DNA from: Desulfuromonadales bacterium
Lineage (GTDB): Bacteria; Desulfobacterota; JAENJC01
Length of the DNA stretch: 64,000 bases
Assembly (NCBI GenBank): GCA_919902985.1
Contig: CAKKSC010000004.1
Coordinates: 1-64,000, forward strand
Direction of reading: 5' to 3'
The notes under the pieces are model-generated. The model had not been told where the DNA came from, ran no database searches, and worked only from the letters and a program-made list of their open reading frames with translations. Below are positions 14,613-63,494 of the stretch, piece after piece (positions within the stretch are counted from its first letter, which is position 1; the number at the start of each line of letters is the position of its first letter). Made by a program: the position numbers and the translations under genes.

Positions 14613-14613
14613 G

Positions 14614-20870: not shown

Positions 20871-20874
20871 TATT

Positions 20875-22746
20875 ATGAAGATACTTCTTATAAACCCTCC
20901 CGGTTGGCAGAAAGGCAGCACAAACCTTGGCCTCTGTTATTTGGCAGGAAGCCTGCTAGTCGGCAAGCATGAAGTTGTTATATTTGATGTAAATGCAACT
21001 GACGACCCTCCTGATAAGATTGCAGAAAAGGCGAAGCAATATGCGCCTGATGTAATAGGTTTTTCTTTAAAGACTGCGACCGCAAAAGCAGCTTTTCTTA
21101 TATCCAGAGCGATTAAAAGCTCCTATGAAAAGGCGATTCATGTGGTAGGCGGACCCCATGTGACACTTGCCTATGATGAGGTCTTGAGAGAAAACCCAGA
21201 AATAGAATACGCCTTCCTGGGCGAATCAGAGATATCTTTTATTGATTTTATTAATATGGTTGAAGGAGGGCGAACCCCTACAACTATAGCTGGGATAGCC
21301 TACAGAGATAACGGGAAGATCGTTGCTACCGAACGCAAATATATTGAGGATATTGACTCTTTGCCTTTTGCTAATCTTGAAGTCATTGAGAACTTCAGTT
21401 TTAACAATTTCCGTTACCCTCTTTTAACCAGCAGAGGGTGCCCATATCCTTGTACATACTGCTGCGTTGGCATCGTCAGCAGCAAAAAATGGCGCTCAAG
21501 GACGCCCGAAAATATCATCGCTGAACTTAAGAATGCCAAAGATAAGTACGGAATAGACAAGTTCGAAATACTTGACGATAACTTCACTTTAAAAGTTGAG
21601 AGGGCTAAGGAGTTCTGCCGATTGCTTATGAAAAGCGGACTCACCTTGAGCTGGTATTGCCATAACGGAATCCGTGCGGATAAGATAGACCTTGAGCTCG
21701 CTAAGCTTATGAAGGCTTCTGGATGTACTAGCGTTGCTCTTGGTGTTGAATCTGGCGATGAAAGGATATTTGACAGTATCAAAAAAGGGGAAAAGCTTGA
21801 AGCAATCATAAATGCGGCAAAGGTTATTAAACAGGCAGGAATGAGGACCGTCGGCTATTTCATAATTGGCCTCCCAGGAGATAGTCTCGAAGGCATTAAA
21901 AAGACGATTAAGTTCCAGCAGGAACTAGGCCTCGACGATTTTACCTATGGTATCCTGAACCCGTATCCCTATACCGAGGTCTATGAGACTGTGAAGCGAG
22001 AAGGGAAGATGCTCATGGACATAAAGGACTCCTCTCACTTCGCCTCGTCTCTTACTATTCCATTTGAGATGCCGGGTTTCTCCAAAAATGAAATGGAGAA
22101 GGCTTATTATCTTGCGAAGAATCAGAAAATCTCAATGGTCATTGAAGGCTATGAAGCTAAATATGGCAAAAAGCCAGAACGTATCCTTTACATCGACTTC
22201 TTCTCCTCATCGATGTTTGTTGACCAACTGAACAGAACCCTGAACAAGTTCGAATTAGATGTTTTTACTGCCCAGTGGCACTGTGATAATTATTTGGCTA
22301 ACAAAACATCGTTCAAAATTGTAAATCTGTATGTATACGTAGATACACCTTACACAATCAACAGGATAATTAAATTTCTTAAAATGTTTAGGATTTTTAG
22401 GTGTAGAGATTACAGTATGATTTTTTATAATATTGAGACCCCGAAATTGCCATTGCCAGTATTGCTACTTATGGTGAGACCAAGAAAGTTTTACTTCGAA
22501 TTTCAGGATGGTGGCAAGATATTAACTCTGTTTGACAAAGAGATCAGGCAGTTTATTTATGACAAAGCAGTGAGCTTTACGCGACGCTTGCCTATAGTTG
22601 TTCTCTCGATAGCCACAAACCTACTGTTTAGAGCAGTTGCTGTCGGTTTCGGATTTTTCCTTTACTTAAAAAGAGGTGGGAAAAGGGTGGATTTTACTAA
22701 CCAGGGACCTAAGTTGATAAATCTAAATGATAAGGAGGGAGCGTGA
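20875..22746 (+). CDS. B12-binding radical SAM protein with long C-terminal extension
   Basis: SRGCPYPCTYCCVG; ~200-aa non-SAM hydrophobic C-terminal part. Confidence 0.88.
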   Translation: MKILLINPPGWQKGSTNLGLCYLAGSLLVGKHEVVIFDVNATDDPPDKIAEKAKQYAPDVIGFSLKTATAKAAFLISRAIKSSYEKAIHVVGGPHVTLAYDEVLRENPEIEYAFLGESEISFIDFINMVEGGRTPTTIAGIAYRDNGKIVATERKYIEDIDSLPFANLEVIENFSFNNFRYPLLTSRGCPYPCTYCCVGIVSSKKWRSRTPENIIAELKNAKDKYGIDKFEILDDNFTLKVERAKEFCRLLMKSGLTLSWYCHNGIRADKIDLELAKLMKASGCTSVALGVESGDERIFDSIKKGEKLEAIINAAKVIKQAGMRTVGYFIIGLPGDSLEGIKKTIKFQQELGLDDFTYGILNPYPYTEVYETVKREGKMLMDIKDSSHFASSLTIPFEMPGFSKNEMEKAYYLAKNQKISMVIEGYEAKYGKKPERILYIDFFSSSMFVDQLNRTLNKFELDVFTAQWHCDNYLANKTSFKIVNLYVYVDTPYTINRIIKFLKMFRIFRCRDYSMIFYNIETPKLPLPVLLLMVRPRKFYFEFQDGGKILTLFDKEIRQFIYDKAVSFTRRLPIVVLSIATNLLFRAVAVGFGFFLYLKRGGKRVDFTNQGPKLINLNDKEGA

Positions 22747-32856: not shown

Positions 32857-33870
32857 ATGAAGAAGCTGCCTATTATCTGGAGCGCATTGGCACTCCTTCT
32901 ATTATTTACAGGTCAGTCTCTCGCATCAACCCCTCAGATTGGGCGGATGCGGGTTGCCATATGGCCGGAGTTTGACGACCCTGGCGCCTTGGTCATTTAT
33001 GACGGCAGGTTCATAGATGACAGCTCTTTCCCCATTGAAACGACCTTCCTTGTCCCGAAAGGCGCTGTAATAAGCGATGCATGCAGTCTCTCGCCAAAAG
33101 GACAGCACTTCTGCCAGTTGTTCACACAGAGGAATGCCGGGGATATGGACGAGGTGCTGTTAAAGCTTCCTTACCCCAACTTCTATCTCAGCTTCCATAT
33201 CAAGCCGTTCAAGGGCGACAACCCTTTGAGAAGGTTCAATTATGTCATAAAGACCAGCCATCCTGTGAGCAAGCTGGAAGTAGACATTCAGAGGCCCCTA
33301 AGGGCTGAGAATTTCACCATTAATCCCGAAACCCATGAGAAGGAAGAATTAAAGGGGTTTGAGCATTACCGCTATCTGATTAAAGACGGAGAAGCTGGGA
33401 TGGTTATCCCCTTTGACATCTCATACAGGAAAGACGACAGCAGGCCGTCCGTGAGCATAAAATACTCGCCCATGAAGGGGGCAAAGACCTGGGGTGAGAC
33501 CGACTACGCCAAGATTAATGATGTGGCGAGGGAGCTTGCATGCCCCTGCGAGTGCCCGTTGGTCTTGGAGGACTGCAATATGAGTTGCGGCCTTGACTGG
33601 AAAGACCAGATAGGGGAGATGCTAAGGGCAGGGAAGACAAAGGATGAGATAATAAAGGCATTCATTGCAAAGTATGGCAATGAATGCAAGATAACGCCGA
33701 TAATGAGGATACAGGGAAAGTTTTTCCAGTACACAAGAAGGTTTGATACAATGGACTGGGCCCTTTTATGGGGTGGTGTCGCAGTGTCAGCAGGGTCTTT
33801 ATTTTTAGGCATATATATGGTCGTCAGGAGGTTCCTGAAAAAGAGGACAACGGCTGGAGTGGACGGTTGA
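32857..33870 (+). CDS. secreted/membrane protein with C-terminal CcmH/NrfF-like domain
   Basis: Signal peptide; ELACPCECPLVLEDCNMSCGLDWKDQIGEMLRAGKTKDEIIKAFIAKYGNECKITP plus C-terminal TM. Confidence 0.75.
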   Translation: MKKLPIIWSALALLLLFTGQSLASTPQIGRMRVAIWPEFDDPGALVIYDGRFIDDSSFPIETTFLVPKGAVISDACSLSPKGQHFCQLFTQRNAGDMDEVLLKLPYPNFYLSFHIKPFKGDNPLRRFNYVIKTSHPVSKLEVDIQRPLRAENFTINPETHEKEELKGFEHYRYLIKDGEAGMVIPFDISYRKDDSRPSVSIKYSPMKGAKTWGETDYAKINDVARELACPCECPLVLEDCNMSCGLDWKDQIGEMLRAGKTKDEIIKAFIAKYGNECKITPIMRIQGKFFQYTRRFDTMDWALLWGGVAVSAGSLFLGIYMVVRRFLKKRTTAGVDG

Positions 33871-34673
33871 GGGCATTTTTCATTGCTTCTTCTATATTTA
33901 TAGGATTTCTGGCCGCCCTTGCCCTTGCAGCCTTTCTTATCCTCGTAGATACAAGCCCAATGGGAAGGATGGAGTATCTCTTTGAAATTGGCAGGCTGAG
34001 TGTATTCCGGTATACCGGCCTCGGCAACATGAGTGACCGGGATGTAAAATTAATATATGAGGGCAGATGCACAAGGAAGTGCCACAGCCGTGATGTTGTA
34101 GAGCGTTCCGCCCATAATGTCAGGGAGTGGGAGGAGATTATAGGAAGGATGCGGACCGTAAATAAGGCAAATGTGACAAACAGCGAGGGAACAGTGATTA
34201 CAACCTATCTCACAAAACGCTATGGGAGCAATATCCCCACCATCCTTACAGCCGAAGGCGGCAAATACCTGAAAAAATATCTTTGGCGGAGCGACTTCGG
34301 GGAAAGCGACCTGTATGTAGATATCATATTCACCCCTATGGAGTATTTCAACTTTACAGGAGGGGGCAGCACTCTTGAAGGGTATGATGCCGGTAAATAT
34401 ATACTCTTCAAGGTTTATTTAAACACACATCAGAACAAGCTTGCGCCCTACCCCCTTGAGCGTCTGGCAATACTTAAGACCGGCGAAGGCAAAGAATATA
34501 AACCTGAGATGTGGAAGGTGCTTTATGAAAGCGCTGATTATCACCACAGGGAAGGATTATTTGTATTTAAGGGTGTTGGCAACGACGCTACATCCATGTC
34601 TCTCTTCCTGATGGATTTACCGGGGCAGAAGGAGAGGATATTTCAGTGGGACCTTCCGATACCGGAAAAATGA
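33867..34673 (+). CDS. membrane-anchored putative c-type haem protein with CX3CH motif
   Basis: LIYEGRCTRKCHSRDVVERSAHNVREWEEIIGRM; N-terminal TM; TTG start overlapping upstream stop. Confidence 0.65.
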   Translation: MRAFFIASSIFIGFLAALALAAFLILVDTSPMGRMEYLFEIGRLSVFRYTGLGNMSDRDVKLIYEGRCTRKCHSRDVVERSAHNVREWEEIIGRMRTVNKANVTNSEGTVITTYLTKRYGSNIPTILTAEGGKYLKKYLWRSDFGESDLYVDIIFTPMEYFNFTGGGSTLEGYDAGKYILFKVYLNTHQNKLAPYPLERLAILKTGEGKEYKPEMWKVLYESADYHHREGLFVFKGVGNDATSMSLFLMDLPGQKERIFQWDLPIPEK

Positions 34674-35251
34674 ATATACTACACAATAAACTAACCACGG
34701 AGACACAGAGACACAGAGTAAATATTTTTATGCCTCTTCTCCGTGCCTCCGTGCCTCTGTGGTTAATCATTGTCCTTTTCCTGGGTTGCAGCAAAGAGCC
34801 CAGGGGGACGCAGCCAACAATCAAGATTGGGGAAACTGCCCCCCCTTTTTCCCTTGAACTGATAGACGGGAGGACCGTAACGCTTGACACATTCAAGGGG
34901 AAGCCCCTGGTATTAATAAATATGGCATCCTGGTGTCCCTGCTCCCACGATAGCGCACCTGTCTTCAAGGAGGTTTATGAAATATACCATCCTAAGGGTG
35001 TTGAGTTCCTGATGCTCGGGATACAGGACTCAAAGAAAAAGTTTGAAAAATTTGTGAAGAAGAAGGAGTTCAAATTCCCTGCTGGGTTTGACAAGGGGGA
35101 TGTTATTTCCAAAACATACGGTGTAAGCGCCCCTCCGACAACATTCTTTATAGACAGTGATGGAAAGGTAGTAAGCGCCTTCTATGGCAAGATAATAGAG
35201 AAAGAAAGGCTATCTGCATGGATCGACGAGATAGTTCCCAGGGAGGAGTAA
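34670..35251 (+). CDS. TlpA/ResA-like redoxin lipoprotein
   Basis: Lipobox IIVLFLGC; PPFSLELIDGRTVTLDTFKGKPLVLINMASWCPCSHDSAP; thioredoxin fold motifs. Confidence 0.85.
   Translation: MNILHNKLTTETQRHRVNIFMPLLRASVPLWLIIVLFLGCSKEPRGTQPTIKIGETAPPFSLELIDGRTVTLDTFKGKPLVLINMASWCPCSHDSAPVFKEVYEIYHPKGVEFLMLGIQDSKKKFEKFVKKKEFKFPAGFDKGDVISKTYGVSAPPTTFFIDSDGKVVSAFYGKIIEKERLSAWIDEIVPREE
34691..34767. repeat. interspersed palindrome (ACCACGGAGACACAGAGACACAGAG / CTCCGTGCCTCCGTGCCTCTGTGGT)
   Basis: Imperfect inverted arms 34691-34718 and 34740-34767, inside the TlpA-like ORF. Confidence 0.9.
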
Positions 35252-36031
35252 TTGATTATAAAGGACGTCGGTTTCCTCATCGCCTTCTGGGGCGGTTTTT
35301 CATCCTTTTTTACACTCTGGCAGCTATGCCTGATGCAGATAACGCCATTCTTTCTTGCCTTTGCGGCAGGTCTATATTTGCTGGAAGATAACAGCAATTC
35401 CGCAGCCCGCAATCCGCAATCCGCACTTGTCAGCCTTCTCCTGGCATGCGCTGGGTACATTCTCGGTTTCAGCATCGTATTTGCTTTGATGGGAACATCT
35501 GGATGGGGAACTGCTTCATACATACTTTACAACATTGATGACTTCAGGACCGCAGCCGCTATCTATATAACAATTATCGCCCTGTTGATGGCGCTTTACA
35601 ACTTTTATGGAAGCCTCGCCAGCTCTTTAGACAAGCTCAGGATGAACGATGATATAACCTTATTTGACAAACCTATCCTGTTCCGCATCTTATATCTTCC
35701 AGCAGGCCTTCTCCTTGGGGCATCCTTTGCCCTGGCCTATTCACCGTGCATCCCGCCTGTTATGTCCGATATAATGAACTTTGCCGGCAAGCCTAACAAT
35801 GCCCTCAGGGGCTTTCAACTTCTGATTGTATACGGTTTTGGAGTGACTTTGGCATTCTCCATTTCAGGGTCTGCGCTCGCCATTCTGGCTGGTTATTTCA
35901 CAGAGAGAAGGTCTGTAAAGGTCACTATTGCCTATCTGTCTTCAGGGACCTTGTTCCTCATGGCATTTCTGATATTCACAGACCTGATGATCCGCTATAA
36001 GTCGTTTCTGGTGGGGCTGGTCCTCGATTGA
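35252..36031 (+). CDS. CcdA/DsbD-like membrane protein
   Basis: Six-TM-like hydrophobicity, ASFALAYSPCIPPVMSDI proline/cysteine motif, adjacent TlpA. Confidence 0.75.
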   Translation: MIIKDVGFLIAFWGGFSSFFTLWQLCLMQITPFFLAFAAGLYLLEDNSNSAARNPQSALVSLLLACAGYILGFSIVFALMGTSGWGTASYILYNIDDFRTAAAIYITIIALLMALYNFYGSLASSLDKLRMNDDITLFDKPILFRILYLPAGLLLGASFALAYSPCIPPVMSDIMNFAGKPNNALRGFQLLIVYGFGVTLAFSISGSALAILAGYFTERRSVKVTIAYLSSGTLFLMAFLIFTDLMIRYKSFLVGLVLD

Positions 36032-50329: not shown

Positions 50330-51489
50330 TTTACCAGACGTAATTCAGGAGATGTCTCTCCCTTTTCCACGAGAATGATAAACGGGGTTCTGATGGTCTG
50401 GGCATCTTCACTCATAGAGATTTCGCCGGAAACACCTCGAAATCCTTTTATTTCAGTAAGCGCAGTCCTGACCTTTGAAGGTTCTGTACTCCCGGCTTTC
50501 TTTATGGCCTCTGCAATTAGCATAAAGGAGTCATAACTCGCGGCAACCACAGGTGAAGGGTCCTTCCCCTTAGCATTCCTGTAAGACTCAATAAACTTCA
50601 CGGTTACGGGGTCGTCAGAGAGGGTAGTGAAGCTCGTGTAGAGGACAGAGCCAATGGTGGCCTCCCCGCCTGCCTTCAAAAACTCGGCAGCATTCAGGTT
50701 CTCACTGCCCACGAATGGCGCTTTTATACCCTGTCTTCGCAACTCCTTCAATACTTCTATCGCCCCCTTACTGTTTCCGGTAAATACGACGGCATCAATA
50801 TTTGCACCTGATTCCTTTTTTAACTTGGCAATCGCCTCTTTAGTACTAAGATCAAAATGGACATAGGCCTGGGAAACCACCTCTCCCTTGTGTTTCTGTA
50901 TCGCCCTCATGTAAAGGCTTACCGCATTCATGGTAGATTCCTCATCCCGCATGGATGTTATAATTGCATACCTCTTGTATTTGAGCTTTTCAATACAGTA
51001 TTTTATTGTTTCATCTGTAGCAATCTCTTCTGGAAGGGCGTTTCTAAATATATAAGGCCCGCTCTTTTCTATATGCCGCCTGCTTCCAGCAGACATAAAA
51101 ATAGTCCCTGACTCGTTCGCCATCGAAACCGGCGCAAAAGATGACAACCCGTCAGGGGAGGCAATAATCGCCACAACCTTGTCATCAATGAGCTTGCCTG
51201 CCGCCTGCATCGTCTCACGCATGACACCTTTGTTATCTACAAATGAGGTCTCAACTTTTTTACCCTGTATCCCCCCCGCCTTGTTGAATTCCCTTGCAGC
51301 CATCGCCACACCTTCAAATACATATTTGCCGAATTCAGCTGAACCTTCGCCAGTTTTCGGCCCGAGAATGCCAATCTTGAGCTTTCTGGAAGGCTCCGCT
51401 GCCGTTTCCGCTGCTGCCTTCTCTATATTTGAGGTAAAGACAATCAGCAGGAAACATGCAATTTGAATTATTAGTGACACCTTTCTCAC
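50326..51489 (-). CDS. branched-chain amino-acid-type ABC substrate-binding protein
   Basis: Signal peptide; IGILGPKTGEGSAEFGKYVFEGVAMAAREFNKAGGIQGKKVE. Confidence 0.88.
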   Translation of the reverse strand: MRKVSLIIQIACFLLIVFTSNIEKAAAETAAEPSRKLKIGILGPKTGEGSAEFGKYVFEGVAMAAREFNKAGGIQGKKVETSFVDNKGVMRETMQAAGKLIDDKVVAIIASPDGLSSFAPVSMANESGTIFMSAGSRRHIEKSGPYIFRNALPEEIATDETIKYCIEKLKYKRYAIITSMRDEESTMNAVSLYMRAIQKHKGEVVSQAYVHFDLSTKEAIAKLKKESGANIDAVVFTGNSKGAIEVLKELRRQGIKAPFVGSENLNAAEFLKAGGEATIGSVLYTSFTTLSDDPVTVKFIESYRNAKGKDPSPVVAASYDSFMLIAEAIKKAGSTEPSKVRTALTEIKGFRGVSGEISMSEDAQTIRTPFIILVEKGETSPELRLVK

Positions 51490-52439
51490 TTCTCTTTTAC
51501 CTCTAAATCAGTCGCTTCATCAGGAACACCATCCAGGAACTCCTCTTCAAGGAGGAAAACATTCCTGTCTCCTCCCCTTTTTGCAAAAAAACCCCTGAGC
51601 TTCTTGTCCTTTTCACCGATTAACAGTGTCTCGAGGAGGTTCTTATTGTCAATGAATTTTATCTTCAGTCTTGGGTTATCGAGGCCATATGTACTAAGGC
51701 TTTGCGGGTTCTCATCTATGAACGCCTTGACCTTCGACTTTTTTATGCCGTACAGGGTATCAAGTATCTTGGTCAGATCACTTTTACCTTTCAGGACTCC
51801 TTCCACATCCCATATATTCTCCTGCGGATGGAGTATGGTTATGGCCTGTTTGCCGTTCCAGAGTATATCAACCTCTTTAACCATCTTAGGGTCCGTCGCT
51901 ACTACAGTCTTGTCCCTGAGGTCGTAAGGCATCTTGTCAATTTCCGACCTCACATCAGCATGGACACGCAATATCCTCTTGTCCCCGCTTAATGTGGCAA
52001 ATGCAACGTTCTGTGTAGGCCCTCTGTCACCCAATGACAAGGAGGTCGACATCCCTAATGAGGTCTTCAGGGAAATGGTTATATATGGCGGCTCCAAACC
52101 CATTTCTTTCAATTTATCTACAGGAGTTTCTGTAAACAACACACCGTCAATCTTTGCCTTTACTGTGTTATTCAGCATATCGCTGACGGCAACCTGGTCG
52201 GCATAAGCCATAACCGGCTTTTCAATCACCCAGCCTGCGGTCCCCTTCTTTGCCGAAATTACGGAATCACTCTTAGATATCTCAATACTTATCACATCTG
52301 CAGGTTCAAAGGCAAATATCCGGCGCTGTTCTTCCTCTGCAATCTCTTTATCAGTCACCTTCTCATCAAAGAAGTAGAAAATGCCGCTGAGTACTGAAAG
52401 GATTATGAGCCAGAATATGGTCTTCTTGAAAAATCTCAC
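51486..52439 (-). CDS. DUF4340-family protein
   Basis: N-terminal TM, repeated DUF4340-like segments (GWVIEKPVMAYADQVAVSDMLN...); next to GldG-like gene. Confidence 0.75.
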   Translation of the reverse strand: MRFFKKTIFWLIILSVLSGIFYFFDEKVTDKEIAEEEQRRIFAFEPADVISIEISKSDSVISAKKGTAGWVIEKPVMAYADQVAVSDMLNNTVKAKIDGVLFTETPVDKLKEMGLEPPYITISLKTSLGMSTSLSLGDRGPTQNVAFATLSGDKRILRVHADVRSEIDKMPYDLRDKTVVATDPKMVKEVDILWNGKQAITILHPQENIWDVEGVLKGKSDLTKILDTLYGIKKSKVKAFIDENPQSLSTYGLDNPRLKIKFIDNKNLLETLLIGEKDKKLRGFFAKRGGDRNVFLLEEEFLDGVPDEATDLEVKEK

Positions 52440-53992
52440 TATTTGATCCTGCGGCGTGTAAGAACAGCAACGCCAATAACAAGGATTATGGAAGGAACAA
52501 CGACTACAGGAATCCAGAAGATAAATCTCCCCTGAGAGGCCGTCAAAATGAGTGGGGTCAGGTTGGAATCCTTCTTTCTCACAGAGATAAGCTCTGCCTC
52601 CTCTGTAAGCCAGTTTACCATATTAAGAAAAAAGTCCTTGTTGCCTGCAAGATTAACATGGGTAGTATTTACGAACGAGGAATTCCCAACAACAACAAAC
52701 TTTGCATAGACCTTCTTTCCAGAAGCATCATCTCCGCCTTCAACCTTTTTGCTGACATCGCTTATAGCTACTGCGGCGATGGAGAGAGGGCCTTTCTTCT
52801 CGACCCTTTCATCATACTCGGCCTTTCCTTCCTCAAGCGCCTTCCTGTCCGTTTCCCCCCAACTTGCCTCTGACGTTAAAGCAAGGGGGAAAAAACCTTT
52901 TGATGGGTCCCTGTCCACCTCTACAGACCTTGCCAGGGGAAAGAAGGTCATTACATTAAATTCTTCTGTGATAGGGTGCTGCTTCTCGTACTGGGTAACA
53001 ACCGGGACAAGATAGTTTGCACCATAGACCTGCGATAATTTATCTATTATTATATCATTCCCAAGACGAAAACCATAACCCTGAAGGAATTCTGCCAATT
53101 TAGGCGTTGTCCCCGGGTCGAGCATAAAGAGGAGACTCCCCCCCCTGTTTATGTAACTGGTAAGTCTCTCAAGCTCGTCCGGCAGCGGGTCCTTCTTTGG
53201 ACCGCTCACAATAAGAAGCGCACAGTCGTCCGGCACTTCAACTGCGCCCGGCAGGAGCAATTCTTTGACCTGATAATTCTCCTTCTCAATAGACTCTTTT
53301 ATCGCCTTGTACCCTAAGTTCTGAAAGTCAGCTATATCATTTTCTCCATGACCTTTAAGAAAATATACACTTTTTATCTCATCCCTTGTTACCTTTACTA
53401 TTGCATTGATCAGCTTATCTTCCGATTCAAATCCAACCTCCTGCTGATTCGCTCCACTCCTGACAAGGGTTGTCCTATATGCGGTAACTCCGTATTTTGC
53501 TGCAGCCCCAGGCTGTTTATCAGGGTCTATGAACTGGTATGAAAACTTCGAGGATAACTGGGAAAACTCGGAAAGAAGGTCTTCCATCGCCTGTCTCGTC
53601 CTTTCATCGCTCCTGTAAAAGGCAACAGCCATGACATCTTTTTTCAGCGTCTTTACTATCTTCTTACTCTGAATAGAAAGGGTATAACGACCTGTCTTGG
53701 TCAGGTCCCACCTTACTTTGTATCTCGTAGTAAAGAATGAAACTACACCAATCATAGTAATAAAGATTATGATCATCACCGCTGTATTTGCACCATATTT
53801 AGCAGACCTGAGTGTTAATAATGTCCTGAGTTCAGGGAAGCTCACATAGAAATAGAAGAGGAGGATGAGCAACCCAATCCATAAGAGGGCAATTATATAG
53901 CTCTCCATTGCACCGCTTATAGCATATGTAATCCCTCCAGCGGCTACGGTTAAAAGACCTATAATCCCTATTATTGGCAGAAACCTTTTCAT
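52439..53992 (-). CDS. GldG-like auxiliary protein of ABC transporter
   Basis: RWDLTKTGRYTLSIQSKKIVKTLKKDVMAVAFYR, LIVSGPKKDPLPDELERLTSYINRGGSLLFMLDPG. Confidence 0.85.
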   Translation of the reverse strand: MKRFLPIIGIIGLLTVAAGGITYAISGAMESYIIALLWIGLLILLFYFYVSFPELRTLLTLRSAKYGANTAVMIIIFITMIGVVSFFTTRYKVRWDLTKTGRYTLSIQSKKIVKTLKKDVMAVAFYRSDERTRQAMEDLLSEFSQLSSKFSYQFIDPDKQPGAAAKYGVTAYRTTLVRSGANQQEVGFESEDKLINAIVKVTRDEIKSVYFLKGHGENDIADFQNLGYKAIKESIEKENYQVKELLLPGAVEVPDDCALLIVSGPKKDPLPDELERLTSYINRGGSLLFMLDPGTTPKLAEFLQGYGFRLGNDIIIDKLSQVYGANYLVPVVTQYEKQHPITEEFNVMTFFPLARSVEVDRDPSKGFFPLALTSEASWGETDRKALEEGKAEYDERVEKKGPLSIAAVAISDVSKKVEGGDDASGKKVYAKFVVVGNSSFVNTTHVNLAGNKDFFLNMVNWLTEEAELISVRKKDSNLTPLILTASQGRFIFWIPVVVVPSIILVIGVAVLTRRRIK

Positions 53993-54029: not shown

Positions 54030-54809
54030 CTATCCCCTCCACTTCTTTGACTCCAGCACCCTGAGCGTCAGAAAGTTAAAAAGTATAATAAAGAGAAAAT
54101 AGTATATTATGTCCGTCGTATCGACTATGCCCTTTGCAAACCCTTCCAGATGCCCGATCAACGATATGTGCACCATGATATTTCCAATCGTGGGACCCAT
54201 TAAGGAGACTGAAGTCCCCATCATGAAGAACAGGATCAGCACCCCAAAAGACAAGGTGGCCGCGATTATCTGGTTCTCTGTCAGGGAGGATGTAAATATT
54301 CCAAGAGAGATAAAGGCCGCACCTGTAAGGATGAGCCCTATATACCCGGTAATAGTCGGTCCTATTTCAGGCTCACCTAAGAAAATCAACAATGCCGGAA
54401 ATGTAGCTGTAAGCAGGAGCATTAAAAGGAATACAACAAAGCAGGCAATAAATTTCCCGATTATGACCTCCATATCAGTCACCGGATAAGTTAACAGAAG
54501 CTCAATTGTTCCACTCTTCTTCTCCTCTGAGAAGAGGCGCATAGTTAGAAGCGGCATCATAAGGAGCATGATCATGCTTATATTGCCAAAAAGAGGTCTG
54601 ACTACCGTCTCCGTGATATTTAAAAGGTTCTGCTGTTTAGCTATAGCAGGGTTTGTAGAGGCCTGGAAGCTAAGGGTTGAAAAAGAAGCAAGCAGATTAT
54701 AAAAATAATATCCGGTGACAACAAGAAAGATCGTTATTACGACGTAGGCGACAGGCGACGAAAAATAAGAATTGAGTTCCTTCTTAGCTATAAGATAAAA
54801 GTTTCTCAT
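54030..54809 (-). CDS. ABC-2 permease (GldF/NosY-like)
   Basis: Multiple TM; LLTMRLFSEEKKSGTIELLLTYPVTDMEVIIGKF. Confidence 0.88.
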   Translation of the reverse strand: MRNFYLIAKKELNSYFSSPVAYVVITIFLVVTGYYFYNLLASFSTLSFQASTNPAIAKQQNLLNITETVVRPLFGNISMIMLLMMPLLTMRLFSEEKKSGTIELLLTYPVTDMEVIIGKFIACFVVFLLMLLLTATFPALLIFLGEPEIGPTITGYIGLILTGAAFISLGIFTSSLTENQIIAATLSFGVLILFFMMGTSVSLMGPTIGNIMVHISLIGHLEGFAKGIVDTTDIIYYFLFIILFNFLTLRVLESKKWRG

Positions 54810-54816
54810 TTATCAG

Positions 54817-55785
54817 CTACTCCTTTGTCACCAGTTTGATAAAAATATCCTCAAGACTCATCTCAACCGGTCTCAGTTCCAGCAGACCCCAGCCGCTTCT
54901 TACAATGCCGGCGGCAATGTCCCTTCTGACATCAATACCCTTTTCGGTATCTAATATGAACTCGGATACGCCATTGCTGCTCTCTTTTTTGTTAACCCTG
55001 TTTATTCCCCGAATCTTCTGAAGTCCGGTTATAACCTCCTGCGCCGGTCCGTCCACTTTCACAATAAGGCGGCTCGCCCCCTGTATGTTAGATGTAAGGT
55101 TCTGAGGCGTATCAACTGCCACCACCTTCCCCTTATTTATAATGACCACCCTGTTGCAGGTCATGCTTACTTCAGGGAGGATATGGGTGCTCAGGATTAT
55201 CGTCCTTTTACCGGCCAAACTTTTTATCAGTTTTCTAATCTCTATAATCTGTTTCGGGTCAAGCCCAACTGTGGGCTCATCCAGTATCAGCACCTCGGGT
55301 TCATTTACAAGCGCCTGGGCCAGTCCGACCCTCTGGCGATACCCCTTTGAAAGCTCATTTATCATCTTATGGGACATGTCGGAAAGACCACACTCTTCGA
55401 GGGCATTCCCAACCCGGTTCTTCAAGTCCTGCCGCCTCACACCCTTGATCCCTGCGACAAATGTGAGGTAGTCAACTACCTTCATATCCCTGTAAAGCGG
55501 CACATTTTCCGGCAGATAACCTATCCTCTTTTTTACCTCATGAGGCTCTTCAAATACGTCATAACCAGCAATACTGGCCTTGCCGCTTGTAGCAGGAAAG
55601 AAACAGGTAAGGATTCTCATTGTGGTTGTCTTGCCCGCGCCGTTAGGCCCGAGAAACCCCAATATCTCTCCCTTTTCTACAGAGAAAGTGATCTCATTAA
55701 GGGCTTGATAGCTACCGTAACTCTTTGTCAGCTTCTCTACTTGAATCATTATATAACCTGCCTGATTTCTATTTTGAACCTGCAC
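54817..55785 (-). CDS. ABC transporter ATPase (GldA/NosF-like)
   Basis: GFLGPNGAGKTTTMRIL, LSKGYRQRVGLAQAL, LILDEPTVGLDP; probable start MIQVEKL. Confidence 0.92.
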   Translation of the reverse strand: MQVQNRNQAGYIMIQVEKLTKSYGSYQALNEITFSVEKGEILGFLGPNGAGKTTTMRILTCFFPATSGKASIAGYDVFEEPHEVKKRIGYLPENVPLYRDMKVVDYLTFVAGIKGVRRQDLKNRVGNALEECGLSDMSHKMINELSKGYRQRVGLAQALVNEPEVLILDEPTVGLDPKQIIEIRKLIKSLAGKRTIILSTHILPEVSMTCNRVVIINKGKVVAVDTPQNLTSNIQGASRLIVKVDGPAQEVITGLQKIRGINRVNKKESSNGVSEFILDTEKGIDVRRDIAAGIVRSGWGLLELRPVEMSLEDIFIKLVTKE

Positions 55786-56296
55786 CTTCAGGATTAAATG
55801 TGCCTTCCTTATGCGTGCCTGGGATCGATTTCTTCATCAATGCCTGCTCAATCTTTCGTTGAGAGAACGGCGTATCCAATAACTTTATAAGTGCCTCATC
55901 ACCTTTTAGGAGTTTCTTCAGGTCTTCTTTCCTCCAGCCCTCCTCCCAGTTCCCGATAAGACCGCTCCATACCTGAGAGATGGCCACAGCCTCGGCATCG
56001 GTGATGGTTGGGAGATATTCTTTTCCCGGTTTTGCCCTTTCAATATCAATAAGGCTCTTCATGTTATGAACAACAACAATAAACGGTGGGCCGCACCTGA
56101 AGCAATATTTTGTTATCTTATCTATATTATGGCATGAGGAACACTTTGCATACGCAAGAGAAACCGCTTCATCCGGGGTATATTCAAGATAACCTCGAGT
56201 CTTGGATGCTGAAAGTATCTTGTCTTTAAATGCCAATGAAATAACTACGATAAGAAGGAAAACTATAGATATTAAAATCAGATATTTAGATTTCAC
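55769..56296 (-). CDS. membrane-anchored c-type cytochrome
   Basis: N-terminal TM and AYAKCSSCHNIDKITKYCFRCGPPF (CX2CH). Confidence 0.8.
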   Translation of the reverse strand: MKSKYLILISIVFLLIVVISLAFKDKILSASKTRGYLEYTPDEAVSLAYAKCSSCHNIDKITKYCFRCGPPFIVVVHNMKSLIDIERAKPGKEYLPTITDAEAVAISQVWSGLIGNWEEGWRKEDLKKLLKGDEALIKLLDTPFSQRKIEQALMKKSIPGTHKEGTFNPEGAGSK

Positions 56297-56412: not shown

Positions 56413-57357
56413 TTATTTTTTGAACATCTTTGCTTCATCTGCAGCACTCTTTCTCAAGCCGCCTTCGACATAACCTGCACCCTTCAGACCGCCGCCGCGT
56501 CCTGCGAGCGATGCCTCAGCAAGTTCATTAGCTTCAGCAAATGCCGGGTCGGTTGCAGCATTCAATGCATTTACCTTGTTGGCTGCGGATTTAGGATCGA
56601 ATGAAGACTTCGGGTTTAAATAATCGGCAACGCTTGTAATTTTCTTAGTGTCGGCGTTTGCCCTTATCCAGGCGATAACATTCCAGATATCCTGGTCATG
56701 AAGAAGATTTCCCCACTGTGGCATAACGTCCGCAAGGTCAACTGCTCCACCACCTCCCTTTATGACCGTGAACAGCTCAACATTGGTCTTCTTGTTCATG
56801 TACGCAGCACCTGCAGTGAGGTCCCTTGGATACGGATCGAGGTATGTGGCGTTGGGTCCATCACCCTTAAGAAGCCAGCCATGACATCCAACGCAGTAAA
56901 CATAATACCACTGCTTCCCTTCGTTCGGGTTTGCGCCTGGAACCAGGCTTTCCTTGAACGATGGAGACCAGTTGTTTGTCCACTGATTGTATGCGGCTTC
57001 ACCGCTTAGCGGCTTTGCAGCCCTGTCCCACATCTCCGTCTTGCCAGTGCCCTTTGAGTAGCCACTCTCGGTCGCGAAGGTCTTCGTGTTCGCCTTGGAT
57101 GTCCTCTTTCCTACGCCTGTCAAATAGTCAAAGGGGGCTATGCCGTACGTGCTTCCGCCTATACCCTTGGCCATATTCATGGCTTCCTTTTCGTAATTAG
57201 CTGCTGCATCACTCAGCTCAGCCTCTGTACGAGTCGGACACTCCACCTTCACTCCCTCAGCCGTACACCTCTTTTCTGCAGCATTCCCCGCCGCTGCAAA
57301 TACAAAGATGCTTAAAACTGTACACACTGTAATTCCTCTTACTTTGCCTTTCATCAT
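56413..57357 (-). CDS. periplasmic c-type cytochrome
   Basis: Signal peptide; YVYCVGCHGWLLKGDGPNATYL. Confidence 0.9.
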   Translation of the reverse strand: MMKGKVRGITVCTVLSIFVFAAAGNAAEKRCTAEGVKVECPTRTEAELSDAAANYEKEAMNMAKGIGGSTYGIAPFDYLTGVGKRTSKANTKTFATESGYSKGTGKTEMWDRAAKPLSGEAAYNQWTNNWSPSFKESLVPGANPNEGKQWYYVYCVGCHGWLLKGDGPNATYLDPYPRDLTAGAAYMNKKTNVELFTVIKGGGGAVDLADVMPQWGNLLHDQDIWNVIAWIRANADTKKITSVADYLNPKSSFDPKSAANKVNALNAATDPAFAEANELAEASLAGRGGGLKGAGYVEGGLRKSAADEAKMFKK

Positions 57358-57397: not shown

Positions 57398-57763
57398 TTA
57401 TTTAGCCGTGCAGTTACACAGCTTCCGTAAGTAGGACACCATATCCTTTATTTCGTCAGCAGTCAAGGTCTTCCCAAATGGAGGCATAAGAGGAGACTTG
57501 CTGTTTGCCGGCCCACCGTCCGTAATAGCGTTCGTGATATCTGCATCGGAAAGCTTGCTCATATCCTCAGCGCTTGCATGGTTTCTTGGGGTTACGGCCA
57601 TGTCCTTTGTGACATTGATCCCGTCGCCCTTGCCTTGAGGGCCATGACACTGAGTACAGTAAAATTTATAATTCTCTTCAGCAGTAGCCGCGTAAGAAAC
57701 CCCGGTTCCCAAAGTCATCATTACAGCAAAAATCATTAAGAGATAAAGTGCTTTTTTGTTCAT
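57398..57763 (-). CDS. small c-type cytochrome
   Basis: Signal peptide; KFYCTQCHGPQGKGDG; MPPFGKTLTADEIKDMVSYLR. Confidence 0.93.
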   Translation of the reverse strand: MNKKALYLLMIFAVMMTLGTGVSYAATAEENYKFYCTQCHGPQGKGDGINVTKDMAVTPRNHASAEDMSKLSDADITNAITDGGPANSKSPLMPPFGKTLTADEIKDMVSYLRKLCNCTAK

Positions 57764-57830: not shown

Positions 57831-58514
57831 TTAAAAACTTGCAATGAGGGCAGCTACGTTCTTCATGTCAACGTCACTCAAATAACCTTCATAAATAGGC
57901 ATCCTCTTAACAGGCTTAAACACCTTAGGCTTCTTCAGATATGCATATACCCAGTCGCCCTGAAGCCTCTCACCGGCCTTAACCAGGCTCGGCGCAACCA
58001 TTCCGCCAACAACCTTGCCGGTCTTCTCTATCTGATGACATGCCTGACATGCCTGCTTTTTCTCAAATGCCTGTTTCCCCTGAATGTTCTTATTTGCCTG
58101 AATCACTCCTGCCTCTACATCCTTTGATGTAAGGGTCATAAGATATTCTGCAACCTCGTCAGCCTCTGCCTTTGACAGTTTTGGGTGGTTGCCTGCGTTC
58201 TTCTTCTCCAATGAATTATACTCGATAGGCCTTATGACTATAGGGTCCTGAAGCCACTTTTCCAGCCATTCCTTCTTAAATTTACTGCCGGCATACCACA
58301 GCTCCGGCCCTTTCTTCTTAAGCTGGTCCGCAAAGGTCTTCTCAGTAGCAGGCCCCTGAGTTATATGACAATCACCGCTGCCGCACTTCTTTGCCTCAAA
58401 CACACCCTTACCCTTGGCCGCGTCAGCGCGGCTGCTCTCCGCACCAAATCCAATCATGGCAGATGCGAGGAGCGATACTACAACAACACGACTGCAAGTT
58501 ACTCTTTTAACCAT
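57831..58514 (-). CDS. c-type cytochrome with CX4CH and CX2CH sites
   Basis: FEAKKCGSGDCHITQGPA and KKQACQACHQIEKTGKVVGG. Confidence 0.85.
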   Translation of the reverse strand: MVKRVTCSRVVVVSLLASAMIGFGAESSRADAAKGKGVFEAKKCGSGDCHITQGPATEKTFADQLKKKGPELWYAGSKFKKEWLEKWLQDPIVIRPIEYNSLEKKNAGNHPKLSKAEADEVAEYLMTLTSKDVEAGVIQANKNIQGKQAFEKKQACQACHQIEKTGKVVGGMVAPSLVKAGERLQGDWVYAYLKKPKVFKPVKRMPIYEGYLSDVDMKNVAALIASF

Positions 58515-58570: not shown

Positions 58571-59623
58571 TCAAGGGGATAATTGCTTAAGCATATTTTT
58601 TTCTGTTTCATCTATACTTATAGACATCTTTGGCGATTCCACTTTTACAATGCCGTTGCCATCAATCACACCCAGTTCATTGGTGCCTATGACAGTAAAC
58701 CACACCTTATTGGAAGCTGCTACCGTTATATCTACCGGCGCCCGGTCCCCGCCGACCAGATCGAACTCAATAAATCCCTTATCCTTAGGTGAATAACGGC
58801 CAACACGCTTTTTATACTTGTCGCAATACCATATATTCCCGGCACTGTCGACGGCAAGCCCTTCAGGGACGCCCTTTCCCGGCAGCTCAAACTCATCGAA
58901 TCTTTCCGATACCGGATCAAACTTCACAAGCTTCCTGTCTTTCCTCGCACTGAACCAGAGTTGCCCCTGTCCATCTATTGTAAGCTCTGTAGGCACACAG
59001 AACGGCTTTGGTATGATGTATTCCTTTATCTTCCCTGTCTCAGGAATCAGTTTGCTAATTTTGTTCCCCTGAGTTTCAATAAACCATACTGCGCCCTTAT
59101 TGGTTGCCACTATCCCCACTGGCTGGCTCTTTGGCGTTGGGATTGGGTGCTCCTTGAAACTCTTGGTGACCGGATCAAACTCACCGATCCTGTTCCCGGC
59201 AAACTCCGTAAACCAGACCCTGCCGTCTTTATCCACGGAAAGCCTCATTGACTGGCTCTTTGGAGACGGGATATCATACTCTTCAAATCTCTTGGTTTCC
59301 AGATCAAAAGTTCCTATCTGGTTCCCGTCCTCTTCAACAAACCAGATCCTGCCTTTATGATCAACTGTTATATCTGTGGCCGAGCTGCGCGAGGTTGGTA
59401 TCTCGTATTTAGTGAACTGCTCGTCTTTCTGGTTGAATATAAATATTAAGTTATTTCTAAAATCAACGAACCAGATGCGCCCGCTTACATCAGAGCTGAT
59501 TGCAACAGGAACACCATTGGAAGAGGGTATCGAATAATATTTTACCTTTGACTCCTCTGCAAAAGCCTGAGCGGCTACAGCTGTGAATAATCCTATACCT
59601 ATGATCACATTTCTACATCTCAT
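58571..59623 (-). CDS. Vgb (streptogramin lyase)-like seven-repeat beta-propeller, secreted
   Basis: Signal peptide; seven G.[IVL]W[FY] repeats (GRIWFVDF, GRIWFVEE, GRVWFTEF ...). Confidence 0.9.
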   Translation of the reverse strand: MRCRNVIIGIGLFTAVAAQAFAEESKVKYYSIPSSNGVPVAISSDVSGRIWFVDFRNNLIFIFNQKDEQFTKYEIPTSRSSATDITVDHKGRIWFVEEDGNQIGTFDLETKRFEEYDIPSPKSQSMRLSVDKDGRVWFTEFAGNRIGEFDPVTKSFKEHPIPTPKSQPVGIVATNKGAVWFIETQGNKISKLIPETGKIKEYIIPKPFCVPTELTIDGQGQLWFSARKDRKLVKFDPVSERFDEFELPGKGVPEGLAVDSAGNIWYCDKYKKRVGRYSPKDKGFIEFDLVGGDRAPVDITVAASNKVWFTVIGTNELGVIDGNGIVKVESPKMSISIDETEKNMLKQLSP

Positions 59624-60852
59624 TTATTTCCCTTTCCTCTTAATATAAATCGAATAACGATTGCGAGAAGAGATATGGATACGAGAGCAATAAAAACCAT
59701 CATGAGCATCTGCGATATCCTGTCCGATTTATCATCTTTCGCGCTTTCCTCCTGTTTTTTCCCAACCTTAAGAGTATCTGATATATCCAGTTTTCCTATC
59801 CTGTTAGCGTCCCTGTCTGATTCAGTAAACCATGCGATGCCTTCCCTGTCAACCGCAATACTGGTAGGCAGAGACTTTGACGTCGGGATCTCATATTCAC
59901 TCACAACAGCGCTTACGGGATCGAAGACCCCTATCTTGTTACCCCTGTTCTCCACAAACCAGACCAACCCTTTCTGGTCTATAGCTATGCTCGAGATCAC
60001 AGGAGAAAGGGTCGGCACGATCACCTCGTTAAAGGCCTTCAATGAGGGATTGAACATCCCTATCCTTCCTGTAAGCATCTCAGCAAACCAGACCATACCA
60101 TTGCCGTCAATTGCGATAGATGAAGGATTTGCAAAAGGAGTTGGTATAATATGCTCAATGATCTTGCCCTTGACAGGGTCAAGGCTTGCGAGCTTATTAC
60201 CATCCATCTCCGTAAACCAGACAATTCCCATCTTATCTATGGCAACTGCCGATGGATGACTGGATGGAGTTGGTATCGTATGCTCCTTTATAACTCCCGT
60301 CTCAGGTGAAAGGCTCGCAACCTTATTGCCTTCACGCTCTATAAACCATACAGTCCCGTTCTCCGCTATCGCCAGATCGTAAGGGTTGCTATCTACCGTT
60401 TTGATTGGAAAGCTCTTGTATTTATCTGTTGATGGATTAAAATTAATGATGCTGTTCCCGCTTGAATTAGCTATCCAGATACTACCATCCTTCGCTGCAA
60501 CTATTCCTGCTGGAACTCCAGGGTAAGGAATTACATGCTCCTTGAATGCATTATCTGATGGTGTAAACCTCAGTATCTTGTTTTCATTCTGATAGGCAAG
60601 CCATATATGTCCGCTTCCATCATTTACAATAGCAATGCGGGCAGGAGAAACGGCAGGTATTGGAATAACAAACTCTTTAATGACGGAATCGGCGGCAGTC
60701 GAGCCCCCTGCCATTATTAAACAGAAGAATATAGAGGCAAATAAAATTTGTGCCATTATAGGGAAAATACGGAGTTTAACTGTTTTTGCCATCAGGAGTG
60801 CTTTCACCGGTAAAATCGATCTTCCAGCTCCTTGATTTCTCATCAAGGTCAA
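59620..60852 (-). CDS. Vgb-like seven-repeat beta-propeller with C-terminal TM
   Basis: Seven GxxWF repeats (GTVWFIEREGNKVASL, GIVWFTEMDGNKLASL ...) and MLMMVFIALVSISLLAIVIRFIL. Confidence 0.9.
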   Translation of the reverse strand: MTLMRNQGAGRSILPVKALLMAKTVKLRIFPIMAQILFASIFFCLIMAGGSTAADSVIKEFVIPIPAVSPARIAIVNDGSGHIWLAYQNENKILRFTPSDNAFKEHVIPYPGVPAGIVAAKDGSIWIANSSGNSIINFNPSTDKYKSFPIKTVDSNPYDLAIAENGTVWFIEREGNKVASLSPETGVIKEHTIPTPSSHPSAVAIDKMGIVWFTEMDGNKLASLDPVKGKIIEHIIPTPFANPSSIAIDGNGMVWFAEMLTGRIGMFNPSLKAFNEVIVPTLSPVISSIAIDQKGLVWFVENRGNKIGVFDPVSAVVSEYEIPTSKSLPTSIAVDREGIAWFTESDRDANRIGKLDISDTLKVGKKQEESAKDDKSDRISQMLMMVFIALVSISLLAIVIRFILRGKGNK

Positions 60853-61228
60853 GGTTTATATCCGTAGTAACGCAAACTTCTCCGCCGAATGCAGATGTAC
60901 ACTTATATTCTATCGTAACAACGGCCCGGTCTTTAACAACCTTAGAGCCGACAATCTTCACTACCATATTTTTTGGATAGTTCAACACTATTCCCTTGAA
61001 CTTATCTTCAGTTAGAGTGAACCGCTTGGAGCTGACCTGCCTGTATGCCTCACTGATAGAGGAACTTCCACCTTCGGCAATGTAACTGTAGAACTTCTTT
61101 ACGACCTCCTCAGGAGACTCTGAAGTCTTGATCTTAACAGAACCACTGTATTGATAAACATAAACCCCGATAATGATGATTAAAAAAAGAAATAATGTCC
61201 CCACTGCCAATAACTTTTTTTTACTCAT
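60776..61228 (-). CDS. small membrane-anchored NTF2-like/DUF4878-like protein
   Basis: N-terminal TM; SPEEVVKKFYSYIAEGGSSSISEAYRQVSSK ... DRAVVTIEYKCTSAFGGEVC. Confidence 0.6.
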   Translation of the reverse strand: MSKKKLLAVGTLFLFLIIIIGVYVYQYSGSVKIKTSESPEEVVKKFYSYIAEGGSSSISEAYRQVSSKRFTLTEDKFKGIVLNYPKNMVVKIVGSKVVKDRAVVTIEYKCTSAFGGEVCVTTDINLDLDEKSRSWKIDFTGESTPDGKNS

Positions 61229-61246: not shown

Positions 61247-61301
61247 AAACAAATGGTTCGGCCGCAGACATTAAGACATTAATTGACTGCGGCCGAACCA
61301 T
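61247..61301 (-). terminator. intrinsic terminator immediately 3' of nosZ-like gene
   Basis: Perfect 15-bp arms atggttcggccgcag (61253-61267) / ctgcggccgaaccat (61287-61301); minus strand followed by TTGTTTTTTGAG. Confidence 0.85.
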
Positions 61302-61318
61302 CGCATTATCCTTAACTA

Positions 61319-63061
61319 TTATATCTGATTAAGATTATCTACCCTCTCTGCCCTTTCAAATTCGTCTTCATCGGCAGCAACGTTCTTCTTCTGGGCCTCA
61401 TCATAATCGCCTACAGCAAGGTTGGAAGGACCTTTCTTCGGATCGTCTACGAAGAACGCGCCCCTCATCTCGAGGTGCAGAGGACCGCAGAAGTGCTGGC
61501 AGTAAACCTCATATTCACCAGCTGTATCAGCGACAAACTCACCAACAGCACTCACACCCCTCGGGATAGTAATCATGGTCTTGAGACCATATGGCCCGTT
61601 TATGTTGTAACCCATAATAACATCGGGGTTTTTGGTTATGCCTGCTGCCTTATCAATATTGGTTACAATAAGCCTGACCTTATCGCCCTTATTGACCCTG
61701 ACCTGCCTTGGGACATAACCGTAGCTGAATGCCTTTACCCTAACTTCCTTAACACCGTCCTTAGTTGTGGTCACGCCCGGCCTGCCTGTATCCATCGGCA
61801 CATAGTAAGACTTGCCGCCTCTATGGTGCCCCGGCTCAATCCTGCCGGACTTACCAGCGCCTGCAAAGAGGGTTGATACACCCTTCTCGGCCTCACCCAT
61901 GTTCCAGTTCTTGATTGCGCTTGCAAAAAGGATCTTTGCGTTGTGCGGCTCACCGTCAACAGGGATAATCTTGAGGGTCTTACCATATGTCTTGCTCTTC
62001 TCCTCAATGTCGATCATCTCATGGTTGACCGGCCAGGCAATGCCTGTCGGGCTGAAAAGCCCGGTAGAGAACTTGTTCAAGGCAAATACATACTTATTGT
62101 CAGGGCTAACACTTATATGCCCGATCCTGTAGTGAACCGGGAACTCGTCAACAACCTCCAGCTTGTCCAGGTCTGTCTTCACGATGCTGTCTGCCACAAA
62201 GCAGCTTGTATACGCATACTTGCCGTTTGTGTCAAACACGTTGTGCAACGGACCGGCTCCGGCAGGGATAACCTTCTTGACAGCAAGCTTTTCAACATCT
62301 ATGATGCTGAGCGTTGCGGAGAGCTTGTCCGCGACCTGGATATACCTTCCGAGTGGGTCGGCGTCCGTACCGTGCGGGTTCTTACCAACTGGGATCTCCT
62401 TTATGAGCTTGAACGGATTCAGCTCGAAGACACCGACTGTTGAGTGGTAGTAGTTGTTGGAGAAAACATACTGCTTCCTGTCTGCCTTACCGGCCTTCTT
62501 GTTTATGTCAAGATAGTCCGGGGCGCTTGGCGCAGGACCCCAGTCTATGACCTGGGTCTTGCCGGTTGCTATATCGGTCTTGGCCATCTTTCCTGTGAGC
62601 TCGCCTGTTGAATAAAGGGTCTTTCCGTCAGGTCCGAGTGTGATGTGGTGAATGCCGAACGGGAAAGGCAAAGAAATGAGCCTGTCCAGCATACCCATCT
62701 GGAGGTTGATTATCCCGATGGTGTTTGCCCCCTTATCGTTCACATAGAGGTATTTGCCATCAGGCCCTTTGCTGTACGGACCATACCAGCTCTTCATACC
62801 TTCGTTTGTAGGTGCGCTGAATGTTGGCTCATGCAGGTCAACACCAACAGGTATATGCCTGTATGTCCTCAAGCTTGGCACACCCATCACAGCCACAGCT
62901 CCGTCAACCCCACCTGCGTTATACATGATCATAGGGTCCTGAAGCGGGGCGTCATTTGGAGACGATTCCGTCTCGTGCCAGTCCCTCTCACCCGCCACCG
63001 CAGTGCCGCCAACCATAAGCAGCAGTGCAAGCACTATAAATAATGAATTGCGATATCTCAT
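61319..63061 (-). CDS. nosZ: divergent Sec-type nitrous oxide reductase (NosZ-like)
   Basis: Sec signal peptide; propeller with NPHGTDADP, GAGPLHNVFD, VHYRIGHISVSPD, GEPHN; C-terminal cupredoxin YCQHFCGPLHLEMRG. Confidence 0.82.
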   Translation of the reverse strand: MRYRNSLFIVLALLLMVGGTAVAGERDWHETESSPNDAPLQDPMIMYNAGGVDGAVAVMGVPSLRTYRHIPVGVDLHEPTFSAPTNEGMKSWYGPYSKGPDGKYLYVNDKGANTIGIINLQMGMLDRLISLPFPFGIHHITLGPDGKTLYSTGELTGKMAKTDIATGKTQVIDWGPAPSAPDYLDINKKAGKADRKQYVFSNNYYHSTVGVFELNPFKLIKEIPVGKNPHGTDADPLGRYIQVADKLSATLSIIDVEKLAVKKVIPAGAGPLHNVFDTNGKYAYTSCFVADSIVKTDLDKLEVVDEFPVHYRIGHISVSPDNKYVFALNKFSTGLFSPTGIAWPVNHEMIDIEEKSKTYGKTLKIIPVDGEPHNAKILFASAIKNWNMGEAEKGVSTLFAGAGKSGRIEPGHHRGGKSYYVPMDTGRPGVTTTKDGVKEVRVKAFSYGYVPRQVRVNKGDKVRLIVTNIDKAAGITKNPDVIMGYNINGPYGLKTMITIPRGVSAVGEFVADTAGEYEVYCQHFCGPLHLEMRGAFFVDDPKKGPSNLAVGDYDEAQKKNVAADEDEFERAERVDNLNQI

Positions 63062-63269: not shown

Positions 63270-63494
63270 GCACCGAAATAAGGTGTTCAACTTTGGTAGT
63301 TGTTATATAGACCAACGCTTTAAAATTGTCAAGATTTTTTTTAACAGTTAAAGTAAGCTTATAACAAAATGGCCACTGGCCACAAATAGAATATTCCTTT
63401 TTTACGATAAGCATTGCATCTTATATATTATTTCTTATATAATAATTCAAATGATGTGTGGACTGCAACTTCTTAAGTAGTTGTCATCCGGAAA

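Follow-up and report, generated by a model that had tools for sequence, protein, structure and literature searches.

A full-length member of the clade III lactonase-type nitrous-oxide reductases with methionine at a CuA histidine position

Introduction

To our knowledge, no enzyme other than nitrous oxide (N2O) reductase is known to serve as a dedicated sink for N2O, a major greenhouse gas. Clade III N2O reductases, the lactonase-type enzymes (L-NosZ), have been recognised only recently. According to a passage of a 2026 paper (PMC13274427) that cites He et al. 2025 (Nature 646:152), clade III catalyses N2O reduction, and expression of lactonase-type nosZ, without proof of function, has been described in groundwater Nitrospirota (PMC11033732). 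In canonical NosZ, seven histidines bind the CuZ center, with blade 2 of the propeller giving two of them (H129 and H130) and blade 4 none (PMC11573801); the ligand numbering and the role of a CuZ-adjacent lysine are described in PMC8301774. Replacing six of the seven CuZ histidines of P. stutzeri NosZ abolished metalation, and replacing the seventh led to an inactive three-copper site (PMC11573801). At the second copper site, CuA, His583 can switch between an IN and an OUT state and has been proposed as an electron-transfer gate (PMC11573801).

Here we describe a NosZ-like gene in a 64,000-nucleotide stretch of a Desulfuromonadales bacterium genome (the window; contig CAKKSC010000004.1, positions 1 to 64,000). 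An earlier note, made from the letters alone, had pointed to this gene, and its claims are taken up below where the results bear on them.

Results

The gene and its product

The L-nosZ open reading frame lies on the minus strand at 61319-63061 and encodes 580 amino acids from an ATG start without an internal stop. Its product is laid out as a seven-bladed propeller (about residues 42-385) followed by a CuA cupredoxin domain (about residues 430-540), and begins with a Sec-type signal peptide, MRYRNSLFIVLALLLMVGGTAVA (62993-63061, minus strand), read from the sequence and lacking a twin arginine. Three motif strings highlighted in the earlier note are present on the minus strand, essentially where it had placed them: DLHEPT (residues 75-80, 62822-62839), EPHN (residues 371-374, 61940-61951), and the CuA string CQHFCGPLHLEM (residues 521-532, 61466-61501). 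Upstream of the gene, a sigma-70-like promoter (TTGACA-17-TATATA; 63302-63332, minus strand) was recognised by eye and is absent from the promoter scanner's list. Just after the gene, a repeat scan found an 18-bp inverted repeat (61253-61301), at which a scan of the gene strand found no terminator-like T-run; the repeat possibly serves in partial termination or mRNA protection ahead of the remaining cluster.

Family membership, structure models and relatives

The protein is a full-length member of the clade III lactonase-type N2O reductases, a clade already known. It matches the NCBIfam model NF052460 ("clade III lactonase-type nitrous-oxide reductase") over positions 1-480 of 480 with 700.9 bits (E 6.9e-211), a narrow margin over the curated cut-off of 700 bits, and it scored 701.3 bits in a whole-genome profile scan. 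The E-value excludes chance as the source of the likeness to NosZ, and the full-length match bears out the earlier guess of a lactonase-type third NosZ group. Some clear L-NosZ orthologues from the same phylum fall under this cut-off, at 658-696 bits. The models for canonical clade II (TIGR04246; 188.2 bits, E 2e-55) and clade I (TIGR04244; 150.9 bits) both have curated cut-offs of 625 bits, far above the scores reached here. The expectation that canonical tools would miss the gene therefore holds for these two models but not for Pfam nos_propeller (46 bits, cut-off 30), which detects it as NF052460 does. Further Pfam matches were to Lactonase (PF10282; 51.9 bits) and YNCE (51.8 bits), with a sub-threshold cupredoxin match, and the NCBIfam YVTN repeat model gave 51 bits. 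Both a lactonase-like seven-bladed propeller and a C-terminal CuA cupredoxin are present, as seen in the PF10282 match, the AF2 models, and the CuA residues.

In the whole-chain AF2 model (pLDDT 80.1, pTM 0.83), the top 50 PDB matches are all NosZ (best E 1.8e-31). These matches include entries that we take to be the P. stutzeri NosZ 583 variant series. The whole chain superposes on NosZ with a TM score of only 0.51 and 16 Å rmsd, which suggests that the two domains are placed differently relative to each other in the monomer model, and the CuA loop (residues 524-532) has a pLDDT below 50. A propeller-only model (pLDDT 89.9, pTM 0.90) again has NosZ for all of its top 50 PDB matches, with TM scores of 0.80-0.83 at 3.3-4.0 Å (for example, 0.82 at 3.6 Å). 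Because six canonical NosZ sequences were among the input alignments, the structural evidence partly overlaps with that from sequence.

These results bear on whether the protein could instead lie outside NosZ altogether, as a fusion of a generic YVTN/lactonase propeller with a cupredoxin. The Lactonase and YNCE scores do lie slightly over that of nos_propeller, but the canonical NosZ model scores 188 bits as compared to 51 for the YVTN repeat, the structure searches return NosZ for the whole chain and the propeller alone, and the same-phylum generic YVTN propellers compared were not found to carry the CuZ histidine set in register. On the profile scores, the structure search, and the histidine register, a generic origin was rejected as improbable in the extreme.

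When genomes of the same phylum were scanned, many more of them, belonging to several other families, proved to carry L-NosZ genes, as do two of the three genomes that make up the window's class. The complete relatives score 658-779 bits against NF052460; one further relative is fragmentary and another is divided between two contigs. Full-length orthologues in the protein's own and other families share 65-95% identity with it. In a tree of 23 proteins, with six NosZ genes of the same phylum as the canonical comparison set, a branch supported at 100/100 separates L-NosZ from canonical NosZ; the window protein lies inside the L-NosZ side, together with its same-genus relative. The earlier note had also considered a separate NosZ branch outside the lactonase-type clade, for which one could cite the bare pass against NF052460 (700.9 as compared to 700) and a residue, Met483, that is not the one the model prefers. 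This reading is very improbable: full-length orthologues at 65-79% identity score from 658 to 779 bits, the window protein is nested among its same-phylum orthologues in a single, fully supported L-NosZ clade, and the top scorer, L036 (778.7 bits), has all of its motifs, including Met483.

Among named records, the nearest comes from a metagenome bin that bears the label Deltaproteobacteria bacterium CoA_3_bin.27, and the sole return of a contig-database search was a same-genus record with 95% identity. Plasmid matches were all below 60% identity, those listed being at 24-27% and canonical where annotated; a viral contig search gave no match, and a phage search one weak match. This nosZ-like segment, with 29% identity to the query, lies at 20459-21424 of OQ572413.1, a record labelled Pseudomonas phage Y12, and is possibly bacterial DNA within a phage record. 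A Pfam/NCBIfam profile scan of the window's genome found no canonical NosZ.

Motifs shared across clade III

In the same-phylum alignment, every L-NosZ covering the respective site has DLHE, GxHHI, NPHG, GPLH, HYRxGH, EPHN, and CxxFCGPLHLEM. To reach beyond this phylum, the NF052460 consensus was read by scoring protein fragments with single substitutions, a probe that shows the content of the model makers' alignment, not which members are active. The model favors Glu78 over His by 2.7, Ala by 3.2, and Asp by 2.0 bits, and Asn374 over Asp by 2.8 bits. Replacement by Ala costs 4.6-4.7 bits at each of His77, 138, 139, 230, 273, 315, and 373, as compared to 3.2 at His310, 2.2 at His206, 1.5 at His69, and nothing at His347; at Cys521, Cys525, His529, and Met532 it costs 4.1-4.9 bits each. 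Deleting the GITKNP insert costs 24.7 bits. Because the residue probes favor them, DLHE, EPHN, the TKNP insert, and CxxFCGPLHLEM are clade-wide consensus traits and not oddities of the window protein. The earlier description of a departure from "all three diagnostic" NosZ motifs captured a real divergence but was worded too strongly, as neither EPHD nor the CuA Trp is diagnostic even within canonical NosZ: aligned canonical clade II proteins of the same phylum have EPHY and CTDFC, CTNFC, or CVNFC.

The CuZ site

MAFFT places DLHE on the canonical D-x-H-H, so that His77-Glu78 (62828-62833, minus strand) corresponds to His129-His130, with H129 kept and H130 replaced by Glu, as had been read by eye; a DxHHxH with both CuZ histidines, a canonical trait, is replaced here by DLHE. 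A phmmer pairwise alignment had offered SWYGPY as the DxHHxH counterpart, which was overruled by the multiple alignments; in these the six-residue stretch at SWYGPY is an insert found only in this genus. The remaining CuZ ligand positions, assigned from the alignment and the NF052460 probes and all on the minus strand, are His138 in GIHHI (canonical His178), His230 in NPHG (62372-62374), His273 in GPLH (62243-62245), His315 in HYRIGH (62117-62119), and His373 in EPHN (Glu371-Pro-His373, 61943-61951), where Glu371 is CuZ-adjacent. Lys330 (62072-62074, minus strand) is, by eye from the alignment, the equivalent of the CuZ-adjacent lysine. The six histidines, the lysine, and the glutamate are invariant over L-NosZ and canonical NosZ jointly, in keeping with the earlier remark that the other CuZ-type histidine contexts stay recognisable.

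GIHHI also contains an added neighbor of the His178 equivalent, and His138-His139 (62645-62650, minus strand; 4.7 bits each) form a proposed relocated CuZ pair, His139 being as conserved in NF052460 as the true ligand positions. In the propeller model, His77, His138/139, His230, His273, His315, and His373 occupy position 2 or 3 of the innermost strand in six blades; His138 and His139 hold the second and third positions of this strand in the blade next to that of His77. The sole histidine-free blade, between His139 and His230, matches the histidine-free blade 4 of canonical NosZ, and apart from the blade that bears the pair the arrangement is the canonical one. Because H130 is Glu and yet a second histidine follows the His178 equivalent on the neighboring blade, the CuZ ligand set, with seven invariant histidines kept in clade III, looks relocated rather than reduced. 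By this reading, His138 and His139 would both reach copper.

The CuA site

The CuA motif, C521-Q-H-F-C525-G-P-L-H529-L-E-M532 (61466-61501, minus strand), was examined in the substitution probes above, and of the canonical CuA set the two cysteines, the histidine, and the methionine are kept. The position of the CuA1 ligand and gate residue His583 of P. stutzeri NosZ is taken by Met483 (61613-61615, minus strand): HMMER alignment to that protein and MAFFT both set Met483 on His583 and Asp470 on Asp576, and the canonical CuA histidine loop (PHGF/SHGF) aligns with Met483 in DVIMGY. The earlier note had taken TKNPD for the loop of the lost CuA histidine; these residues instead belong to a six-residue insertion just before Met483, GITKNP (61625-61642, minus strand), which the deletion probe indicates to be clade III-wide. 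Every same-phylum relative covering the site has Met at 483. At this position NF052460 gives His 181.2, Met 180.2, Gln 179.0, and Asn 178.6 bits, followed by Ala and Ser (178.5), Leu (178.4), and Gly (177.4), which looks like a His/Met mixture with a slight preference for His.

Zhang et al. (JACS, 2021) reportedly found that P. stutzeri 583 variants keep both copper sites and that only His, Asp, and Glu sustain electron transfer; these residues are protonatable, and Met is not. Because the CuA1 histidine is Met483 here, the proposed histidine-flip gate cannot work alike in this protein. The substitution predicts a CuA site that would be ungated or differently gated, or an inactive enzyme.

The accessory cluster

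Downstream of L-nosZ on the same strand follow a 150-aa protein, two Vgb-lyase-like propellers, four CxxCH proteins, the ABC transporter genes, a GldG-like gene, and a DUF4340 gene. The 150-aa conserved protein (60776-61228) is unassigned to a family and has homologues beside L-nosZ in other loci. The two propellers (59620-60852 and 58571-59623) match PF24684, and the second is present in all 17 L-NosZ genomes of one survey. Next come three c-type cytochromes with CQACH (57831-58514), CTQCH (57398-57763), and CVGCH (56413-57357), and a 175-aa CxxCH protein without a family match that tracks L-NosZ (55769-56296). The cluster continues with a GldA-like ABC transporter ATPase (54817-55785) and a GldF-like permease (54030-54809), possible counterparts of NosF and NosY, then the GldG-like ABC auxiliary protein (52439-53992) and the DUF4340 protein (51486-52439). 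This gene order is largely repeated elsewhere in the phylum, in other families. L036 and L038 additionally encode, between L-nosZ and the propellers, a cytochrome b and a membrane protein that has a single CxxCH.

Within one related class of 65 genomes, the second Vgb-like propeller occurs in 16 of 16 genomes with L-NosZ and 1 of 49 without (Fisher 2.6e-14); the corresponding counts for the 175-aa protein are 14 of 16 and 1 of 49. The p-values are indicative only, since the genomes are related to each other. The co-occurrence still holds in G019, G439, and G440, where these genes are on contigs other than that of L-nosZ. The tandem Vgb-like propellers and the 175-aa protein are candidate maturation or electron-transfer partners of L-NosZ. 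G401, of the same genus as G057, has both proteins and no L-NosZ match in a genome that is 92% complete, reflecting gene loss or an assembly gap.

No nosD adjoins the window's L-nosZ, and NosD over the cut-off was found in none of seven L-NosZ genomes tested, which gave at most weak beta-helix matches, as compared to both of two canonical-NosZ genomes tested. NosL homologues are present on other contigs of the window's genome. In L033, a short parallel beta-helix protein with weak NosD likeness (67 bits, cut-off 300) is encoded at 14223-15014, about 11 kb upstream of L-nosZ. Within the window, 32857-36031 holds homologues of a block that adjoins L-nosZ in L038. A CcmH domain and a thioredoxin-like protein are among the products, and these genes probably act in cytochrome c maturation. 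Two haem-copper oxidase subunit I homologues, P0002 and P0003, are encoded at L072:2119-4187 and L069:1588-2979 (G000 contigs C11 and C41); a gene for a CuA subunit, P0004, directly precedes that of P0002. Both seem by eye to have Gln or Phe at the oxygen-reductase active-site Tyr position (GHASQQ, GGHILQF), and they may be alternative NO reductases and hence a source of N2O.

Discussion

We consider it likely that the gene product is a periplasmic, Sec-exported clade III N2O reductase, acting as the terminal reductase of a quinol-fed chain, with what is probably a CuZ of seven histidines and a CuA that may include Met483. Electrons would pass from quinol to a b6c-type complex, whose genes are inside the cluster in two relatives, then through the cluster-encoded c-type cytochromes to CuA in the C-terminal cupredoxin, and on to a four-copper CuZ-type center in the propeller hub, where N2O would be reduced to N2 and H2O. 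CuZ would probably be formed by His77, 138, 230, 273, 315, and 373 together with His139, so that the histidine pair would now sit on blade 3 instead of blade 2 and Glu78 would mark its former place, and CuA would keep its two cysteines, His529, and Met532, with Met483 in place of the CuA1 histidine. Judged from sequence and gene context, N2O reduction fed by c-type cytochromes is most likely the activity of the window protein.

Alternatively, the protein may be an L-NosZ relative that binds copper but whose activity has been lost or changed, leaving an electron-transfer or copper protein, or an enzyme for another substrate. The intolerance of canonical NosZ to loss of a CuZ histidine ligand (PMC11573801) speaks for this, as does Met483, which takes away the gate histidine. 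Yet the model for clade III as a whole, which is cited as reducing N2O, has Glu78 as its consensus, and no variation is seen at the other metal positions. Many families have also retained the gene along with a conserved respiratory cluster, and we therefore regard lost or changed activity as rather unlikely. Returning to the N2O reductase reading, we advance only tentatively, and with some doubt, the fuller proposal that this whole lineage consists of functional N2O reductases whose CuA gate histidine has become Met, while the seventh CuZ histidine sits on the neighboring blade, and maturation proceeds free of NosD through a Gld-like ABC transporter and tandem Vgb-like propellers.

With the clade itself already described, the remaining interest lies in the CuA Met lineage, the apparent relocation of a CuZ ligand, and the NosD-less accessory cluster. 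The gene adds another uncultured lineage to the potential N2O consumers, and DLHE, GIHHI, EPHN, and the TKN insert are clade hallmarks usable in primers and models. Two mechanistic ideas, that the seven CuZ histidines must all occupy their canonical places and that flipping of the CuA His583 gates electron transfer, find a natural test in the Met483 lineage; should its enzymes prove functional, proton-coupled electron transfer gated by His at CuA would not be universal in N2O reduction. The accessory cluster provides specific candidates for maturation and electron supply.

With YVTN/lactonase (PF10282) and YncE proteins the window protein shares a seven-bladed propeller and detectable sequence similarity, whereas the examples compared lack the CuZ histidine set in register and would not be expected to have a CuA domain. 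Canonical NosZ (TIGR04244, TIGR04246) shares the fold, six of the seven CuZ histidine positions, the CuZ-adjacent Lys and Glu, and the CuA Cys2-His-Met set, and differs in being only 29-31% identical, in H130 (Glu here), in the extra histidine after H178, in the six-residue CuA-loop insertion, and in His583 (Met here). The NosZ-like lactonase-domain proteins of Nitrospirota class 9FT-COMBO-42-15, Sporomusa acidovorans, and others (PMC11033732), compared by description, have the lactonase-type propeller and cupredoxin in common with it and are likewise distinct from clade II; nosDFLYX is reported with their gene, unlike here, where there is neither an adjacent nosD nor a NosD over the cut-off. 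Closest of all are the clade III L-NosZ/L-N2OR proteins represented by NF052460, which the window protein resembles in its full-length model match, its Sec-type leader, DLHE, GIHHI, NPHG, GPLH, GH, EPHN, the CuA-loop insert, and the CuA Cys2-His-Met set, and from which it is set apart by Met483, at a position where the family model holds His or Met with a slight lean toward His.
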